Below, piece after piece: positions 468 through 44,584 of a DNA stretch of 64,000 nt. The stretch lies in NCBI RefSeq assembly GCF_019222765.1, contig NZ_CP078145.1:682001-746000 (forward strand), in the 5' to 3' direction. Made by a program: the position numbers and the translations under genes. Position 1 is the stretch's first letter; each line of letters begins with the position of its first letter. Below the pieces are notes generated by a model, which was not told the DNA's origin, did not search any database, and saw only the letters and a list, made by a program, of their open reading frames with translations. Origin of the DNA: Nocardia iowensis. Lineage in GTDB: Bacteria > Actinomycetota > Actinomycetes > Mycobacteriales > Mycobacteriaceae.

Positions 468-1661
<1,194 letters not shown>

Positions 1662-1716
1662 GGCAAATACCTCAGGCCTTCGTCGGGGTGGGTTGCACCG
1701 ATCATTGCATATCGAC

Positions 1717-1730
1717 TGAAACATGTTCCA
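1717..1730. promoter_or_regulatory. KstR-type operator between fadE26 and fdxD
   Basis: The 14-mer TGAAACATGTTCCA fits the KstR operator pattern tnnAACnnGTTnnA at every fixed position. It sits in the divergent region between fadE26 and fdxD, 56 bp before the fadE26 start and 87 bp before the fdxD start. KstR is the TetR-family repressor of cholesterol catabolism in mycobacteria and rhodococci; its gene is not in this window. Confidence 0.78.
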
Positions 1731-1817
1731 GTATTGCTGCTGAATCCGGTCGATGGCGCCGCGCGAGGCGGCATCGGCTTGTTAGGCTTCGACCAGGATC
1801 GCGGTAAAGGAGTTCTG

Positions 1818-2006
1818 ATGAAGGTAAGCGTCGATCTGGACCAGTGTGAAGCGAACGGAATCTGTGTCGGAATCGCCCCCGACGTGTTCGAACTCGATGA
1901 TGAGGACCAGTTGCACATCCTCGAAGCCGACGTGCGGGCCGACCGCCTCGCGGACGTCGAGGACGCGGTGGCGCAATGCCCGAAAGCGGCCCTGCGACTC
2001 CAGTGA
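1818..2006 (+). CDS. fdxD: Small ferredoxin, 3Fe-4S type (FdxD-like)
   Basis: This 62-residue acidic protein carries CEANGICVGIAPDVF near the N-terminus and CPKAAL near the C-terminus, with cysteines at residues 10, 16 and 54. Three cysteines in this spacing match small [3Fe-4S] ferredoxins that feed electrons to cytochromes P450 or other oxygenases. The ATG at 1818 follows an AAAGGAG ribosome-binding site at 1806-1812, which excludes longer upstream starts. The gene lies between divergent sterol acyl-CoA dehydrogenases and hsd4A, as fdxD does in M. tuberculosis (Rv3503c). Its partner enzyme in sterol breakdown is not identified here. Confidence 0.88.
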   Translation: MKVSVDLDQCEANGICVGIAPDVFELDDEDQLHILEADVRADRLADVEDAVAQCPKAALRLQ

Positions 2007-2026
2007 GACCGGGCCTTGCCATAGAT

Positions 2027-2040
2027 TGGAACACGTTCTA
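2027..2040. promoter_or_regulatory. KstR-type operator overlapping the hsd4A promoter
   Basis: TGGAACACGTTCTA differs at one base from the canonical KstR palindrome TAGAACACGTTCTA. Its last two bases begin TAGGGT (2039-2044), a TANNNT-type -10 element that ends 6 nt before the GTG of hsd4A at 2051. A repressor bound here would cover the -10 box, and the transcript would be leaderless or nearly so. The operator is well supported; the leaderless start is inferred. Confidence 0.85.
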
Positions 2041-2050
2041 GGGTCGGCTC

Positions 2051-2956
2051 GTGAGTGATGACGATGTGAGTCTGGCGGGCCGGGTAGCGATCGTGACCGG
2101 AGCCGGTGCCGGGCTGGGGCGGGCAGAGGCGCTCGCGCTGGCCGGAGCAGGCGCTTCGGTGGTGGTCAACGACCTGTCGGAATCGGCTGCGGTGTCCGAC
2201 ACCCTGTCCGAGATCCGTGCGCTCGGCGCGAAGGCCGAGTTCGTCGCGGGCAGCATCGCCGAACGCACGACGGCGGACGCGCTGATCCGCACCGCCGACG
2301 AAGCCTTCGGCGGCGTCGACATCGTGGTGAACAACGCGGGCATCACCAGGGACCGCATGCTGTTCAACATGTCCGACGAGGACTTCGACGCGGTCGTCGC
2401 GGTCCACCTGCGCGGACATTTCCTGTTGTCCCGCAACGCGGCGACGTATTGGCGCGGCAAGTCCAAAGCGGCGGGCGCACCGATCTACGGCAGGCTCATC
2501 AACACCTCGTCCGAGGCCGGACTGCTCGGGCCGGAGGGGCAGGCCAACTACGGCGCCGCCAAGGCGGGCATCACCGCCCTGACCCTGTCGGCCGCCCGCG
2601 CACTGTCCCGGTATGGCGTGCGCGCCAACGCGATCGCGCCCCGCGCGCGGACGGCGATGACCGAGGCCGTGTTCAGTGCGGCGCCCGAGGGCGAGGTCGA
2701 CCCGCTCTCGCCCGATCATGTGGCCCGGCTGGTCGCCTACCTCGCCTCGCCGGCCGCCGACGCGGTGAACGGTCAACTGTTCGTGGTCTACGGCGGGATG
2801 GTGGCGCTCATGGCGGCACCGGTTGTCGAGCAACGCTTCGACGCCGCTGGTGGCCAGTGGTCCGCCGGAGATCTAGCCGCGACCCTCGGCGGCTATTTCG
2901 CCGAACGCCCTGCGGGGCAGACATTCTCGGCCTCGGCCCTGCTGGATCTGGGCTGA
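2051..2956 (+). CDS. hsd4A: Short-chain dehydrogenase, 17-beta-hydroxysteroid type (Hsd4A-like)
   Basis: The 301-residue protein is a classical SDR: TGAGAGLG dinucleotide-binding loop near residue 17, NNAG near residue 94, catalytic serine in NTSSEAG and the YGAAK tyrosine-lysine pair. After the SDR core a tail of about 50 residues follows, as in Rv3502c-like proteins. It should oxidise or reduce a hydroxyl on a steroid or on its CoA-linked side chain with NAD(P). It stands alone between fdxD and the mce4 operon, has its own KstR site, and is followed by 342 bp without a gene before yrbE4A. The start is the GTG at 2051, directly downstream of a putative -10 box. The exact substrate is inferred from orthology and context. 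Confidence 0.85.
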   Translation: MSDDDVSLAGRVAIVTGAGAGLGRAEALALAGAGASVVVNDLSESAAVSDTLSEIRALGAKAEFVAGSIAERTTADALIRTADEAFGGVDIVVNNAGITRDRMLFNMSDEDFDAVVAVHLRGHFLLSRNAATYWRGKSKAAGAPIYGRLINTSSEAGLLGPEGQANYGAAKAGITALTLSAARALSRYGVRANAIAPRARTAMTEAVFSAAPEGEVDPLSPDHVARLVAYLASPAADAVNGQLFVVYGGMVALMAAPVVEQRFDAAGGQWSAGDLAATLGGYFAERPAGQTFSASALLDLG

Positions 2957-3209
2957 GTCCGGAAGAGCTCGACCGGGCGAGCGAAACAAGCTCAGCGAGG
3001 ATCGACAACTGCAAGGCCCGGTGACACGGAGCTGCTGATCGACTGTCCAACTGTTGATCACGGGTCTGGCACTTGGTAGACATTGGTGGTCGAGATGTGT
3101 GCCGCCGCACAAAGGTGGGATCAATCTCGCTGACACTCGTTTCAAATTCATATGCCGATGCAAAGAAAAAGTGCAGCTCAAAAGTGGCAAACATCTTCCG
3201 GCAACGCAA

Positions 3210-3223
3210 TGAACGTGTTCTAA
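3210..3223. promoter_or_regulatory. KstR-type operator upstream of the mce4 operon
   Basis: ATGAACGTGTTCTA matches the core AACnnGTTnnA and departs from the consensus only at the first base. It lies 76 bp before yrbE4A in the 342-bp gap between hsd4A and the mce4 operon (2957-3298). Apart from this palindrome and the AAGGAGG ribosome-binding site at 3284-3290, nothing else was recognised in that gap. The site probably controls the whole transport operon. Confidence 0.75.
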
Positions 3224-3298
3224 TCGTGGAGGCGGTGCGGCCTCGGTGAAGAATCGTGCCGTGAGCTTGTACGCAGGTTTGAGCAAGGAGGTTCGCTG

Positions 3299-4063
3299 AT
3301 GAACGAGGTCCTTGCCGTGCCATTGCGGGCCGTTGGCGGGTTCTTCGAACTGACCGCCGAAGTCGCACGCTCCAGCGTGCGCAGGCCATTTCAATGGCGC
3401 GAGTTCATCGACCAGTCGTGGTTCATCGCGCGAGTCTCGATCGTGCCGACGCTGTTGGTCGCGATTCCATTCACCGTTTTGGTGAGCTTCACGCTGAACA
3501 TCCTGTTGCGCGAGATCGGCGCGGCCGACCTCAGCGGCGCGGGCGCGGCATTCGGCGCGGTCACCCAGGTGGGTCCGATCGTCACCGTGCTGATCGTCGC
3601 GGGGGCCGGTGCCACCGCGATCTGCGCTGACCTGGGCGCTCGCACCATTCGCGAGGAAATCGACGCGATGCGGGTGCTCGGCATCAACCCGGTGCAACGA
3701 CTGGTGGTGCCGCGGGTGCTCGCCTCGATGTTCGTCGCGCTGATGCTCAATAGCCTGGTGTGCACTATCGGCATCGTCGGCGGATTTCTGTTCTCGGTGT
3801 TTCTGCAAGACGTGAACCCGGGCGCGTTCGTCAACGGCATCACGCTGCTGACCCATTTGCCCGAATTGGTCATCTCCGAGGTGAAGGCCGGATTGTTCGG
3901 GCTGATCGCCGGGCTGGTGGCTTGTTATCTGGGTCTGAATGTCAAAGGCGGTCCCAAGAGTGTCGGTGACGCGGTGAATCAGACCGTTGTCTTCGCCTTT
4001 ATGGCCTTGTTCGTGGTGAACGTGGTGGTCACCGCGGTTGGCATCAAGTTCACGGCGCGGTGA
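3299..4063 (+). CDS. yrbE4A: Mce4 transporter permease YrbE4A
   Basis: This 254-residue MlaE/YrbE permease has about five hydrophobic segments and the family hallmark ADLGARTIREEIDAMRVLGI, where the EEIDAMRVLGI loop is thought to contact the ATPase MceG. The ATPase is not encoded here, as is usual for mce operons. With YrbE4B it should form the membrane core of the Mce4 importer for cholesterol and related sterols. The ATG follows a strong AAGGAGG ribosome-binding site and opens an operon whose later genes mostly overlap by 4 bp. A KstR-like operator precedes it. Confidence 0.93.
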   Translation: MNEVLAVPLRAVGGFFELTAEVARSSVRRPFQWREFIDQSWFIARVSIVPTLLVAIPFTVLVSFTLNILLREIGAADLSGAGAAFGAVTQVGPIVTVLIVAGAGATAICADLGARTIREEIDAMRVLGINPVQRLVVPRVLASMFVALMLNSLVCTIGIVGGFLFSVFLQDVNPGAFVNGITLLTHLPELVISEVKAGLFGLIAGLVACYLGLNVKGGPKSVGDAVNQTVVFAFMALFVVNVVVTAVGIKFTAR

Positions 4064-4067
4064 CCGC

Positions 4068-4919
4068 ATGGCCTTCGTGATCGAATCCCGCTTCCCGCGT
4101 ACCGTGCGACGAGTGCGTCGGATGTCGGACTCGCTCGATTCTGTCGGTAAACATGCTGTGTTCTACGCCCAGGCTCTTGGGGCCATTCCGCGCGCCATGA
4201 CGCACTATCGAACCGAAACCATTCGGCTGATCGCCGAAATCAGCATGGGCAGCGGTGCTTTGGCGGTGATCGGTGGCACCGTGGTGATCGTCGGCTTCCT
4301 CACGCTGTTCGCCGGCGGCACCATCGCCGTGCAGGGTTACAGCTCGCTCGGCAATATCGGCGTCGAGGCGCTTACCGGCTTCTTCGCGGCATTCATCAAT
4401 GTGCGCATCGCGGCGCCGGTGATTTCCGGCATCGGATTGGCCGCCACCATCGGGGCGGGTTCGACCGCGCAGCTCGGCGCCATGCGGGTGGCCGAGGAGA
4501 TCGACGCGCTGGAGTCGATGGCGATTCGGCCGGTGCCGTATCTGGTCGGGACCAGGGTGCTGGCGGGGATGATCGCGATCGTGCCGCTGTACGCGCTCGC
4601 GGTGATCGCGTCGTTCCTGGCCAGCCGGTTCGCGACGGTCGTCATCTACGGGCAGTCGGCGGGCGTCTACGACCATTACTTCTCCACCTTCCTGATCCCG
4701 AGCGACATCCTCTGGTCGTTCGCGCAGGCGATCTTCATGGCGCTGGCCGTCATGCTGATCCACACCTATTACGGCTTCCATGCCGCGGGCGGACCGGTCG
4801 GGGTCGGCGTCGCGGTCGGCAACGCGGTGCGGGCCTCGCTGGTCGCGGTGGTCACGGTGACCCTGCTGATCTCGCTGGCCATCTACGGCACCTCCGGCAA
4901 CTTCCATCTCTCCGGGTAA
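4068..4919 (+). CDS. yrbE4B: Mce4 transporter permease YrbE4B
   Basis: The 283-residue protein is the second MlaE-type permease, with the conserved MRVAEEIDALESMAIRPVPYLVGTRVLA loop in its middle and hydrophobic segments on either side. The ATG at 4068 lies 4 bp after the yrbE4A stop and gives MAFVIESRFPR; a longer frame reaching into yrbE4A is unlikely. It should pair with YrbE4A in the inner membrane and receive sterol from the Mce4A-F proteins that follow. Order and spacing are those of mce operons in general. Confidence 0.93.
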   Translation: MAFVIESRFPRTVRRVRRMSDSLDSVGKHAVFYAQALGAIPRAMTHYRTETIRLIAEISMGSGALAVIGGTVVIVGFLTLFAGGTIAVQGYSSLGNIGVEALTGFFAAFINVRIAAPVISGIGLAATIGAGSTAQLGAMRVAEEIDALESMAIRPVPYLVGTRVLAGMIAIVPLYALAVIASFLASRFATVVIYGQSAGVYDHYFSTFLIPSDILWSFAQAIFMALAVMLIHTYYGFHAAGGPVGVGVAVGNAVRASLVAVVTVTLLISLAIYGTSGNFHLSG

Positions 4920-19317: not shown

Positions 19318-19389
19318 GCCTCCTTAGCTCAGTGGTAGAGCACTCGCCTTGTAAGCGAAAGGTCGTCAGTTCAATCCTGACAGGGGGCT
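19318..19389 (+). tRNA. tRNA-Thr, anticodon TGT
   Basis: A complete cloverleaf can be folded: acceptor GCCTCCT with AGGGGGC, D-stem GCTC/GAGC, anticodon loop CTTGTAA (19348-19354) with anticodon TGT reading ACA, and T-stem GTCAG/CTGAC around TTCAATC. The anticodon stem has one weak C-A pair at its base. The CCA end is not encoded. A strong terminator follows. Confidence 0.92.
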
Positions 19390-41125: not shown

Positions 41126-41304
41126 CGAGTTTCTGTGCGACAAATGCGTGAGTGCAGTGAGATACCGGCCGAACGCGTGGTGCCAGTGCGCGCCGAATCG
41201 GCGAAATCTGTAGAAACAGAAGGGTTCCGGTTATGCATGGTCAGTGCGATAAGAAGGTGTGTCGTTGCATCGATAGACGACCGCTATGGTCGATGCTGGT
41301 GCCC

Positions 41305-42420
41305 ATGGAATCGACTTCCCCGAGCGTAGAAAGGCGTGGGCCCCGCCGCACATTTGTGGCCGGTACCGCGGTAGCAGGGCTGCTTGTCGGTGTTATGACC
41401 GGATTCGGCGCGGTGTCCGCTTCGGCGGCGCCGAGCGTATCCGGGATTCCCACGAACGCGGTGTCCCCGGATGGTTCGCGTATTACCGGTGTCGAACAAA
41501 TCGATGACCACAGCATCCGGCTCCAGGTGCACTCCGCGGCGATGGACAAGACATTTCCGGTCGACGTCGTCCGCCCGGCCGATAACTCCCGGCCCCGGCC
41601 GACGCTCTATCTGCTGAATGGCGCCGACGGTGGCGAAGGCCTGGCGTCGTGGCAGGCGCAGACCGATATTCCGAAGTTCATGGCGGACAAGAACGCCAAC
41701 CTGGTAATTCCGGTGGGCGGGCCGTTCAGCTACTACGCGGACTGGATCAAGGATGATCCGGTACTCGGTCGCAACAAATGGAAGACATATTTGACCGAAG
41801 AGTTGCCACCGCTGATCGATGCGGCACTCGGCACCAATGGCGTCAATGCCATCGCGGGAATTTCCACCGCGGGCACCAGCGTGCTCACGATCCCCATGGC
41901 GAAGCCGGGCCTCTACAAGGCCGTGGCCGCCTACAGTGGCTGCGCGCAGACCAGCGACAAACTCGGCACGGCTTTTGTCAAGTCGGTGGTCGGCATGGGC
42001 GGCGGCGACGTAGAGAACATGTGGGGCCCACCCGGCTCGCCCGAATGGCTGGAAAACGACGCATACATCAATGCCGAGAAATTGCGCGGAGTGGATCTGT
42101 ACCTGTCGTCGGGCGACGGCAGCCCGGGCAAATACGACACGATCGACGGACGGGCCGAACAGCTCGGCGGCGGCCGGACCCAGATCGATGGGGACGACAA
42201 TCAGCTCGGCATCGAAACGCTGATCAATCAGATCGCGGTCGGCGGCGCGATCGAGGCCGTCACCAACTTCTGTACCCGCAACATGCAGCAGCGGCTGGAG
42301 TCGCTCGGTATTCCGGCGACTTTCCGCTACGCCTCCGGTACGCATTCGTGGGGTTACTGGCAGGACGAGTTCAAGCGGTCCTGGGCGTTCCTGTCCCGCA
42401 GCATGGGTTTGTCGGAGTAG
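41305..42420 (+). CDS. Secreted antigen-85-like protein (mycolyltransferase family)
   Basis: The 371-residue protein has a twin-arginine-like N-terminus (ERRGPRRTFVAGTAVAGLL) and signal peptide ending near ASAAPS, then an antigen 85-family domain: TLYLLNGADGGEGLASWQ, WKTYLTEELPPLIDAAL, nucleophile AGISTAGTSVLT, AYSGCAQTS, and TRNMQQRLESLGIPATFRY with the catalytic histidine in GTHSWGYWQ. In the antigen 85 elbow GLSMAGSS the methionine is replaced by threonine here. Function as mycolyl transferase or esterase is undecided. ATG at 41305 is taken as start; ATG at 41293 is possible. Confidence 0.83.
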   Translation: MESTSPSVERRGPRRTFVAGTAVAGLLVGVMTGFGAVSASAAPSVSGIPTNAVSPDGSRITGVEQIDDHSIRLQVHSAAMDKTFPVDVVRPADNSRPRPTLYLLNGADGGEGLASWQAQTDIPKFMADKNANLVIPVGGPFSYYADWIKDDPVLGRNKWKTYLTEELPPLIDAALGTNGVNAIAGISTAGTSVLTIPMAKPGLYKAVAAYSGCAQTSDKLGTAFVKSVVGMGGGDVENMWGPPGSPEWLENDAYINAEKLRGVDLYLSSGDGSPGKYDTIDGRAEQLGGGRTQIDGDDNQLGIETLINQIAVGGAIEAVTNFCTRNMQQRLESLGIPATFRYASGTHSWGYWQDEFKRSWAFLSRSMGLSE

Positions 42421-42685: not shown

Positions 42686-43534
42686 ATGGTATCTACAGAG
42701 CCCCTGATCAACGATGTTTCCGACACGGCACGATGGGCAGCAGCATATCGGGCCATAGAATCGTCCCGAAAAGACGCGCTAATCTGTGATCCATTCGCCG
42801 ATCGCATGGCCGGACCCAGTGGCTACGAGATAATCAACGCGGCTCCGAAGAAAGTGCGGAGCGGACTCGGCGTCATTGTCCGGACAAAGATCATCGACGA
42901 CCTTATCCAGGATTCATTGGCGCGGGGTTGCACTCGGGTGCTGAACCTTGCCGCCGGCCTCGACACCCGTCCGTATCGCCTCGATCTGCCCGCTGAGCTG
43001 ACCTGGATCGAAGCCGACCTGCCCCGGTTGCTCACCGAGAAGGAGCAACTTCTGGCCGACGAGACGCCCAAGTGCCGGTTGGAACGGCATCAGGTGGACC
43101 TGTCCGATGGGGCCACCATGCGCTCGTTCCTGGATTCCGCGGTGGTGGATCCCGCCCACACCCTGGTCATTGCCGAAGGGCTCATCCAGTACCTCGAGGA
43201 CGAGCAGGTGAACGAGCTGGCCGCCGCGCTGCGCGCCGCGAACGTCGCCTGGTGGATCGTGGACGTCATGAATACGACGATGCAGACCGGCATGGAGAAG
43301 TCTTACGGAACCATGTTCGAGAATGCGCCGTTCCGATTCGTCTCGGATGATCCGATCGCATATCTGGAAGAACGGGGTTGGGCGGCAACGGACGTGGAAT
43401 CCGTGTACACCACAGCGCGCCGCGCGGGTCGCCTGCCGCTCAAGATGCGGTTGCTCGCTCCGCTGCTCGAGCCGGACCCTCGCAATACCGCGGGCCGGCC
43501 GTGGGCCGGTGTGCTCCGGTTGTCCCCGTCGTGA
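42686..43534 (+). CDS. Class I SAM-dependent methyltransferase, TIGR00027/LCMT family
   Basis: The 282-residue protein belongs to the actinobacterial leucine-carboxyl-methyltransferase-like O-methyltransferases: DTARWAAAYRAIESSRKDALICDPFADR near the start is the typical opening, and LNLAAGLDTRPYRLDLP is the SAM-binding loop, followed by EADLPRLLTEK and VIAEGLIQYLEDEQV. Cytoplasmic. TATCCT stands 6 nt before the ATG, so the transcript may be leaderless. Substrates of this expanded family are mostly unknown. It ends before a two-sided terminator. Confidence 0.87.
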   Translation: MVSTEPLINDVSDTARWAAAYRAIESSRKDALICDPFADRMAGPSGYEIINAAPKKVRSGLGVIVRTKIIDDLIQDSLARGCTRVLNLAAGLDTRPYRLDLPAELTWIEADLPRLLTEKEQLLADETPKCRLERHQVDLSDGATMRSFLDSAVVDPAHTLVIAEGLIQYLEDEQVNELAAALRAANVAWWIVDVMNTTMQTGMEKSYGTMFENAPFRFVSDDPIAYLEERGWAATDVESVYTTARRAGRLPLKMRLLAPLLEPDPRNTAGRPWAGVLRLSPS

Positions 43535-43608
43535 CGTAGCGACATCTGTCGGTGGCCGGGCCGATCGGTGCGGCCACCGGATAGTTCCGGTAAAGCCTGG
43601 CATAAACG

Positions 43609-43655
43609 AAATGCAGGGCCGAGCGTCTGCAGTCGCTCGGCCCCGCATTTTCTAG
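43609..43655. terminator. Two-way terminator between the methyltransferase and peptide genes
   Basis: A 17-bp stem with one mismatch (43609-43625, AAATGCAGGGCCGAGCG, with 43634-43650) encloses an 8-nt loop. The A-rich left arm and T-rich right arm make it usable on both strands. It ends the methyltransferase mRNA and, on the minus strand, the first small peptide gene. Confidence 0.82.
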
Positions 43656-43663
43656 GTCTGGGT

Positions 43664-43747
43664 TTACAGCAGGCCCAGCGCGGAGACGGCGATCGCTACG
43701 ACGGCGCCCAGGCCGATGCCGAGGGGGAGGGTAACGGAGAGCAGCAT
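43664..43747 (-). CDS. 27-residue hydrophobic peptide, copy 1
   Basis: On the minus strand, ATG at 43747 opens a 27-codon frame ending in TAA. The peptide starts MLLSVTLPLGIG and ends VSALGLL; it is almost wholly hydrophobic with no charged residue. AAAAAGGAG at 43758-43766 is a strong ribosome-binding site. A nearly identical gene stands 143 bp upstream, and both leaders share GGAGTAC and the CCGAC stretch before it. A terminator lies just downstream. It could be a membrane microprotein, a type I toxin-like peptide or a leader; no family is recognised. Confidence 0.72.
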   Translation of the reverse strand: MLLSVTLPLGIGLGAVVAIAVSALGLL

Positions 43748-43828
43748 AATGGTAGTACTCCTTTTTAGTCGGGTGGGTGTGTCCAGTAAAAACGACCTGA
43801 ATCCGCCTCAGCGGATTCGTGGAATTCG

Positions 43829-43872
43829 AGAAAAACGGAGTCTGGCGTTCCTCCTGCGTACGCCAGATTCCG
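43829..43872 (-). terminator. Rho-independent terminator of small peptide gene copy 2
   Basis: Read on the minus strand, a 13-bp stem (43836-43848 with 43860-43872, one G-T pair, 11-nt loop) begins 18 bp after the peptide stop and is followed by TTTTT (43831-43835). Copy 2 is therefore its own transcription unit. Next to it, GAATCCGC and GCGGATTC (43799-43806, 43811-43818) form a further short hairpin before copy 1. Confidence 0.85.
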
Positions 43873-43890
43873 AGTTCCCGTCGGCTGCTG

Positions 43891-43974
43891 TTAGAGCAAG
43901 CCCAGCGCGGAGACAACCAGAGCGAGTGTGAGGCCGACGCCGAGGCCGAGGGGGAGAGTAACGGAAAGCAGCAC
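43891..43974 (-). CDS. 27-residue hydrophobic peptide, copy 2
   Basis: GTG at 43974 opens a 27-codon frame ending in TAA at 43891. The peptide starts MLLSVTLPLGLGVG and ends VSALGLL. The first ten and last seven residues are the same as in copy 1, and the middle is varied but equally hydrophobic. AAGGAG at 43981-43986 lies 6 nt upstream. Conservation of ends, ribosome-binding site and separate terminators argues for a real, selected gene pair rather than chance frames. Confidence 0.72.
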   Translation of the reverse strand: MLLSVTLPLGLGVGLTLALVVSALGLL

Positions 43975-44197
43975 GAGGTACTCCTTCGTTGGTCGGTTGA
44001 GTGTGGTCTAGCAAGAGAGATCATGCCAAGTGTGGCCTGGCAGACGTTGAACTGTTCCGGCGTGTCGGAAATTTCGCGACATCTGACCTTTCTAAGCAAC
44101 CGTTCAATCGCTCGATTTCCACGCTGGACATTCGTTCAACCGGCATCGTCGAAAAGCCGGTCGTGCCAAGGATTACCGGCGGGTGGTGCGGTCGAGC

Positions 44198-44584
44198 TCA
44201 GTAACGGTGGCAGGAGGCCGCGACTTTGCTCATCACCGCGCCCGATTCGGCATTGGCGGCACTGGTGTCGGTCATCGCCTCGATCTGCGCCCGGTGGTTG
44301 GTAAGCATCCCGAAAATCGCCGCGCGCTGATCGGCAGGCGCTGAGAGCGTCATTTGCAGTGCTGTCTTGTGGATCGGCGAGGCGTCGAGCTTGGCTGCTG
44401 CTTCCGGTGCCACGTCGTGCAGTGCTGTGTCGAACTGACTGAACGAGCATTTCGTCACCAACAGGCCCACCATGTCATCGATCGGATTGGCGGCGGCGGT
44501 GCCGGCCCCGAGCAATGCGGTGCCCGCGGAAACCGCGCCGATGGCGAGAGCGGCGATCGTGTATCGGGTTTTACGCATCTTCAT
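44198..44584 (-). CDS. Secreted haemophore-related protein (Rv0203/Rv1174c family)
   Basis: The 128-residue precursor has a signal peptide (TIAALAIGAVSAGTALLGAGTAAA, cleavage before NPIDD) and the short helical domain of haemophore-related proteins: VTKCSFSQFDTALHDVAPEAAAKLD, SPIHKTALQMTLSAPADQRAAI and the C-terminal SCHRY. Two cysteines, one early and one four residues from the end, probably form a disulfide. Relatives such as Rv0203 bind haem outside the cell; others have unproven roles. AAGGG precedes the ATG at 44584. Downstream a GCCGG/CCGGC stem followed by TTTT (44152-44180 on the other strand) may end the mRNA. Confidence 0.8.
   Translation of the reverse strand: MKMRKTRYTIAALAIGAVSAGTALLGAGTAAANPIDDMVGLLVTKCSFSQFDTALHDVAPEAAAKLDASPIHKTALQMTLSAPADQRAAIFGMLTNHRAQIEAMTDTSAANAESGAVMSKVAASCHRY

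Follow-up and report, generated by a model that had tools for sequence, protein, structure and literature searches.

Tandem genes for uncharged micropeptides in Nocardia and their linkage to a MytC-like mycoloyltransferase gene

The window (the whole 64-kb stretch of Nocardia iowensis DNA that was analysed) contains two 27-codon genes that belong to a previously undescribed Nocardia family of uncharged, hydrophobic micropeptides, encoded mostly in tandem arrays. The coding frames are under purifying selection, a conserved element lies upstream of the arrays, a covarying hairpin follows some of the first copies, and the arrays are linked to the gene for a MytC-like mycoloyltransferase. We propose that the peptides are glycine-zipper helices of the cell envelope, probably of the mycomembrane, that serve as partners or acyl acceptors of this enzyme and work like PorA/PorH, a tentative reading in which belief and doubt are nearly balanced.

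Two micropeptide genes in the window

The array and its protein-coding neighbours are as follows.

41233..42420, plus strand: MytC/Cmt1-like mycoloyltransferase gene, proposed partner (PF00756; Cmt1 similarity)
42686..43534, plus strand: LCM methyltransferase gene, neighbour in the class A clade (PF04072, TIGR00027)
43664..43747, minus strand: micropeptide gene, second and last in the array (27 aa, ATG start, TAA stop, SD AAGGAG)
43891..43974, minus strand: micropeptide gene, first in the array (27 aa, GTG start, TAA stop, SD AAGGAG)
44198..44584, minus strand: haemophore-related gene, frequent neighbour (TIGR04529)

The earlier note, made from the sequence alone, had described two minus-strand frames of 27 codons at 43664-43747 and 43891-43974, and both are present at these coordinates. 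The two peptides, 70% identical to each other, share the ends MLLSVTLPLG and VSALGLL and contain no charged residue, and a strong SD with the common sequence AAGGAGTA precedes both frames, all as had been claimed. Likewise, Pfam and TIGR matches place a methyltransferase gene on one side of the pair and a haemophore-related gene on the other. These are the only SD-led ATG or GTG frames of 20-40 codons in the 64-kb window that lack D, E, K, R, H, N and Q. SD-led, charge- and amide-free frames of this length numbered zero in 60 first-order Markov windows, and chance frames were rejected on this comparison. Within the 8.95-Mb genome, the copy at 43664..43747 matched itself (100%, E 8.4e-9) and gave only one other strong match; a class A profile had strong matches at the two window copies only, and its third match (E 0.035) lies inside a 733-codon frame.

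Two side observations concern the surroundings of the array. The methyltransferase encoded at 42686-43534, between the enzyme gene and the array, is 80-89% identical to its counterparts in four class A relatives, the next in the collection being at 49%. The sole Rfam match in the window at the gathering threshold is a tRNA at 19318-19389.

A Nocardia family of four length classes

Orthologues of the window genes (class A), at the same position and alike in length, start and SD, are present in four other genomes of the genus, with three copies in G080 and G017 and two in G077 and G094. The gene order of the window is kept in all four: the mycoloyltransferase and methyltransferase genes are on one strand, the peptide genes and the haemophore-related gene on the opposite strand, and an ABC transporter comes next. 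A search of 150 genus genomes with the class A profile gave 12 strong matches (E <= 1.6e-9), confined to the five class A genomes; the weaker matches, among those listed, had E >= 0.004 and fell in frames of at least 128 codons.

More distant members came from a model-free scan of haemophore-related gene flanks for SD-led frames in which no more than one residue is charged or an amide (37 loci), which revealed diverged tandem arrays in other species, with peptides of 28 aa (class B) and 32 aa (class C) that differ by a single four-residue insertion. When 20 longer stretches (about 221 kb) were scanned, arrays accounted for 37 of the 38 matches. The resulting catalogue comprises 63 genes at 21 loci in 19 genomes, namely 12 of class A (11 of 27 aa and one of 29 aa), 30 of class B and 21 of class C; the script that built it demanded G7 and S8 in classes B and C, and its B/C count is the same as that of an independent B/C profile search (51 matches in 14 of 148 genomes). 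Four genes lie beyond the catalogue: one of class B in G140 and three of class D (24-25 aa) in G116, G146 and G009. The family thus totals at least 67 genes in at least 23 genomes of the genus, numbers that are lower bounds because the profile search missed the G140 peptide and class D. The twin set of the window is not the rule, as relatives have one to six copies per locus, with five in G048 and six within one array in G012 and G068.

Besides their main arrays, two genomes carry secondary loci. In G012, a lone class C gene (L186:4962-5060, minus strand) lies upstream of an MMPL-family gene (1294-4557, minus strand) that also carries carboxypeptidase-regulatory-like domains. In G068, three class C genes (L185:4815-5281, minus strand) form a further array that has neither the upstream element nor a mycoloyltransferase gene, and three frames near it have no Pfam match.

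Beyond the genus, a class B profile run against 301 genomes from 31 genera of the family matched only in Nocardia G008 (at most 27 candidates per genome being scored), and the B/C profile gave no match in 397 genomes from 85 genera of the order, a sample without any positive genome; these negatives are soft because the number of candidates scored per genome was limited. Pfam and NCBIfam scans placed the peptides in no significant family, the one Pfam match (E 0.099) being far below the cut-off. Four peptide prefixes were absent from the open-access literature searched, and the topic listings held no description of the family. Table 2 of a study of N. brasiliensis small RNAs, which covers differential RNAs only, has no entry at 695-697 kb (PMC5543724).

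Selection and peptide properties

Purifying selection acts on the frames: pooled pN/pS (Nei-Gojobori, pairs of distinct sequences) is 0.335 for the 27-aa class A genes (36 pairs), 0.387 for class B (253 pairs) and 0.389 for class C (210 pairs). Several pairs of copies (G048.1/.2, G048.3/.4, G121.3/.4 and G121.4/.5) differ by 6-9 synonymous changes and no nonsynonymous ones. The earlier note had held that these are real and easily missed genes for membrane microproteins, a view that would fail if the frames drifted like intergenic DNA in related strains. Orthologous frames are kept in those strains at the pN/pS values above, and this view is now strongly supported. Uncharged frames of about 24-32 codons are something of a blind spot, easily missed yet conserved and present in up to six copies.

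Among the 1775 residues that follow Met1 in the 63 catalogued genes there is no D, E, K, R, H, N, Q, Y or W, and the peptides, at 24-32 aa, have no basic N-terminus. G7, S8 and G11 are invariant in all 51 class B and C genes. Class A has no GS motif; its T6 is invariant, and S4 is found throughout except in G094. Class D follows the pattern GxxxGxxxGxxxG. In each class, small residues (Gly, Ala, Ser, Thr) recur every three to four positions on one helix face. The hydrophobic moment was equalled or exceeded in 11 (class B), 2 (class C) and 704 (class A) of 2000 column shuffles, and none of the classes has a polar face. Periodicity of the small residues was modest, the observed value being reached at lag 8 in 32 (class A) and 30 (class C) and at lag 4 in 43 (class B) of 2000 shuffles, among 24 lag tests of which most were unremarkable. 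The ladder of small residues, together with the class D pattern, suggests a membrane-spanning helix that would self-associate through its small-residue face.

Upstream element and hairpins

Four further features of the array were located outside the coding frames.

44019..44068, minus strand: conserved upstream element CCGACACGCCG-28 nt-TTGGCATGATC, putative promoter (exact pattern in relatives)
43828..43879, minus strand: hairpin after the first copy, loop with GCAGGAGG, then T5 (folding, covariation, model score)
43799..43818, minus strand: smaller second hairpin between the copies, then a T run (terminator-like scan, 2 found versus 2.5 in shuffles)
43605..43654, no strand assigned: strong two-way terminal hairpin of the array (z -5.86 for 43600-43663; terminator-like scan match on the plus strand)

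The exact CCGACACGCCG/TTGGCATGATC pattern, with a gap of 20-45 nt allowed, was found in 17 of the 148 genus genomes searched, at one site each and always at an array, and a backward control of the pattern gave no site. This pair of boxes with near-constant spacing, 5' of the first copy, marks the primary loci; it is degenerate at those of G049 and G101 and not visible at the secondary loci G068:C24 and G012:C9. A tolerant search of nine genomes (fixed gap, up to three mismatches) returned eight sites, seven of them at arrays and the eighth at another place in G022; it returned none in G036, where the gap is 29, or in G101, which gave one control match. Variants of the element also lie 5' of the G140 gene and of the class D genes, and this common element argues for homology of all four classes. 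The element may act as a promoter.

Between the two window copies, the earlier note had placed a single hairpin with T5. That hairpin is present, and a second, smaller one accompanies it, so that two hairpins (about 43828-43879 and 43799-43818) separate the copies; the region of the first (43795-43890) folds with a z of -3.37. The strong last hairpin also stands (43605-43654). The idea that each gene has its own terminator holds only in part: in relatives, the element stands before the first copy, a hairpin often follows that copy, and a strong one often closes the array. The hairpins make better sense as elements of a single operon than as marks of two separate units. At 11 of the 17 loci folded, the last copy is followed by a hairpin with an energy of -28 kcal/mol or lower, a count that leaves out four near-duplicate genomes and, owing to the fixed lengths folded, missed at least one hairpin of -35.6 after G022.3. 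One upstream promoter would then transcribe the whole array, the first-copy hairpin would taper expression and the strong hairpin would end the operon, while the tandem copies would provide a higher dosage.

The GCAGGAGG-loop hairpin follows 8 of 21 first copies (G000, G077, G106, G049, G012, G068, G022 and G036) and also the third copy of G022, at 29-33 nt from the stop codon (54 in G049 and 38 for the third copy of G022). After 13 first copies the GCAGGAGG motif is absent within 130 nt, and it is present downstream of the G140 gene. In an alignment of nine rows, the loop letters are constant and the stem has 14 pairs, with 94.4% of cells paired and eight pairs changed on both sides. Covariation is well above that of slid controls, and on four of five measures no shuffle out of 500 reached the observed value, the fifth being further pair types (85 of 500). 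A covariance model run over 148 genomes gave its nine training sites 56-66 bits, with 36.8 for the site ranked next; at E <= 0.001 it matched in 25 genomes, array hairpins being mixed with unrelated ones. The first-copy hairpin at 43828-43879 is the best R1 site in the window, at 56 bits. Independent handles for finding further members are offered by the element before the first copy and by the covarying hairpin.

A wider role for this hairpin, as a terminator of general use, was considered: the GCAGGAGG motif is frequent, with 8 occurrences in the window versus 2.86 in shuffles, but the training sites score far above the next site, below which array and unrelated hairpins are mixed. As a separate observation, the GCAGGAGG loop resembles the SD of class B and C genes and is perhaps a decoy or a processing signal.

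Linkage to a MytC-like mycoloyltransferase gene

The closest solved structure to the product of 41233-42420 is Cmt1/MytC of C. glutamicum (E 7e-75), followed by PS1 (9e-45) and Ag85A (4.5e-24). Ser189, Glu310 and His341 of MytC, in the numbering given in PMC11927696, align with Ser, Glu and His of the window enzyme, which thus shares the catalytic Ser-Glu-His; however, Cmt1-like paralogues, several per genome, are found in all 148 genus genomes searched. The evidence therefore lies in linkage to a subgroup of these enzymes and not in their presence, and proximity alone would be weak.

A relative of the window enzyme is encoded near the primary array at 19 of 23 loci (the five class A genomes, G091, G106, G048, G041, G121, G008, G140, G012, G068, G022, G036, G116, G146 and G009). 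At two loci (G059 and G066) both the array and the enzyme gene are at contig ends and linkage is undecidable, and at two (G049 and G101) no such enzyme is encoded in the stretch around the array, nor is one at either secondary locus. Four of the 19 linked loci are not independent of the enzyme: G140 was found via the hairpin model at a site beside it, and G116, G146 and G009 by scanning beside enzyme genes. Eight haemophore-related loci without an array (L119, L122, L124, L125 and L127-L130) have no such enzyme gene. In G012, G068 and G022 (L112, L114 and L116), the array is adjoined by a tandem pair of mycoloyltransferase genes.

Among 20 further mycoloyltransferase neighbourhoods that were scanned, a gene for a hydrophobic peptide adjoins the enzyme gene in four, those of G140, G116, G146 and G009. 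Class D came to light through the last three, where the upstream element is present and there is no haemophore-related match. The other 16 neighbourhoods (12 of the core clade, G045, G012:C49, G068:C12 and G022:C9) have no peptide gene, a count that leaves out a Ser/Thr/Ala-rich frame 0.9-4.4 kb away in L242, L244 and L248; the G045 enzyme is sister to the class D enzymes, and those of G012:C49, G068:C12 and G022:C9 are close to the class A enzymes. A hydrophobic ALAWLVAAIISxLNVxLIYLTVTG-like stretch with no SD, possibly the end of a longer gene, recurs about 0.9-1.4 kb past core-clade enzymes in L242, L243, L246, L247 and L249.

On a tree of the enzymes (22 linked and 17 unlinked rows), the linked ones cluster: the linked and unlinked labels change three times versus 12.9 times when shuffled, with 0 of 500 shuffles as low, a contrast that is inflated by near-copies. 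A mycoloyltransferase search at E 1e-100 in 60 genomes of another genus returned no match. The haemophore-related gene lies near primary arrays of classes A, B and C; no match to it came up beside class D, and it was therefore rejected as a functional partner.

Possible roles of the peptides

Where the earlier note left the role open among a membrane microprotein, a type I toxin and a secreted peptide, the comparison of genomes favours an envelope microprotein tied to the mycoloyltransferase. On this proposal, the leaderless uncharged peptides would form single membrane-spanning helices, and the Gly/Ala/Ser/Thr stripe on one face would let them pack into oligomers. Their site would be the cell envelope, most likely the mycomembrane, where we hypothesize that the nearby MytC-like enzyme acts on or with them, probably adding a mycolate at a conserved hydroxyl. 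The candidate acceptor would be Ser8 in classes B and C, its counterpart in class D, and Thr6 or Ser4 in class A. MytC places mycolates on PorA, as described in PMC11927696. According to the account in PMC11066868, O-mycoloylation has no strict motif, occurs close to small residues and falls on Ser more often than on Thr; the same account mentions Nocardia orthologues of Cmt1, no substrate being named at that point. The Ser/Thr preference and these orthologues are compatible with the hypothesis and do not prove it. Against the proposal stand the primary and secondary loci without such an enzyme gene and the close relatives of linked enzymes that have no peptide gene beside them; in class A, moreover, the GS motif is absent, the hydrophobic moment does not exceed that of shuffles, and the methyltransferase gene separates the array from the enzyme gene. 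The most specific version, an O-mycoloylated glycine-zipper family with one Ser or Thr as acceptor, a co-inherited MytC-like enzyme, an oligomer in the mycomembrane and a GCAGGAGG-loop hairpin that sets the copy ratio, is rather unlikely to hold in full.

Among the alternatives, the peptides could be inner-membrane microproteins that carry no lipid and tune a membrane protein such as an ABC-2 transporter or a cell-wall enzyme. This is unlikely, if still a serious contender: single-helix peptides with a small-residue packing face would suit such a role, and ABC transporter genes lie near the array at 8 of 23 primary loci (class A, G106, G049 and G101), but the stretches examined around the other arrays showed none, up to six copies suggest bulk use, and the linkage to the enzyme would be left unexplained. 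The same transporter genes, of ABC-2 type, and the short leaderless frames are what one would expect of secreted surface-active, signalling or antimicrobial peptides exported by a neighbouring ABC transporter. Uncharged peptides are poorly soluble, however, class A is not amphipathic and most arrays have no transporter gene found nearby, which makes secretion highly improbable. Leader peptides of transcription attenuators likewise combine a short frame, here rich in Leu, Val and Ile, with a hairpin behind it. It is the protein sequence that is conserved and not runs of codons, and in the window the array is followed by a strong hairpin and then convergent genes, with no same-strand structural gene behind it to be regulated; we rejected this reading, which is scarcely credible.

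An array of type I toxins, in which depolarising hydrophobic peptides arranged in tandem like Ibs, Ldr and Zor would be silenced by an antisense RNA, is improbable as well. The likeness is in length, hydrophobicity and tandem copies, toxins such as IbsC, ShoB, Ldr, Fst and ZorO being short, hydrophobic single-helix peptides often encoded in tandem; IbsC has 19 residues and ShoB 26, and most of the toxins listed in the same source carry charged residues, IbsC, ShoB and DinQ being excepted there from a positive C-terminus (PMC8309996). Type I toxins are defined by their antisense RNA, and the check for one that the earlier note had suggested revealed no such partner at the array, by tests that are weak for RNAs of this kind: there is no Rfam match at the array, and a consensus promoter scan gave no opposite-strand site over it (the sole match is at 42734-42761), a weak negative because the conserved element, on the coding strand, escaped the scan too. 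Synonymous sites vary freely, with no sign of antisense constraint inside the frames, and linkage to a mycoloyltransferase gene would not be expected of toxins.

For the envelope helices that we favour, the closest parallels are PorA/PorH, PorACj and PorACur of Corynebacterium, likewise short peptides, helical as is predicted for those of Nocardia and described as having no signal sequence, encoded by adjacent gene copies in mycolic-acid organisms with a MytC relative (PMC11927696, PMC5944148). We liken the Nocardia peptides to these by their described properties and not by sequence, and do not claim membership of that family. PorA/PorH-type peptides are 40-57 aa long and amphipathic, and some have been shown to form pores, whereas the Nocardia peptides have 24-32 aa and no charged residue. 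On our proposal they would have a structural or channel-forming role in the manner of PorA/PorH; peptides without a polar face would make a poor pore, so that packing or forming a barrier is no less likely than acting as a channel. In Corynebacterium, both protein mycoloylation and short helical peptides of the mycomembrane are already known. The peptides encoded near the MytC-like gene are a concrete candidate substrate, suited to mass spectrometry, with one predicted acceptor residue; if the proposal is true, mycoloylation would extend to dedicated micropeptides outside that genus. The gene neighbourhoods differ as well: PorA/PorH genes are described as lying between the groEL2 and polyphosphate kinase genes (PMC5944148), whereas the Nocardia arrays lie elsewhere, next to mycoloyltransferase, methyltransferase, haemophore-related and ABC genes.
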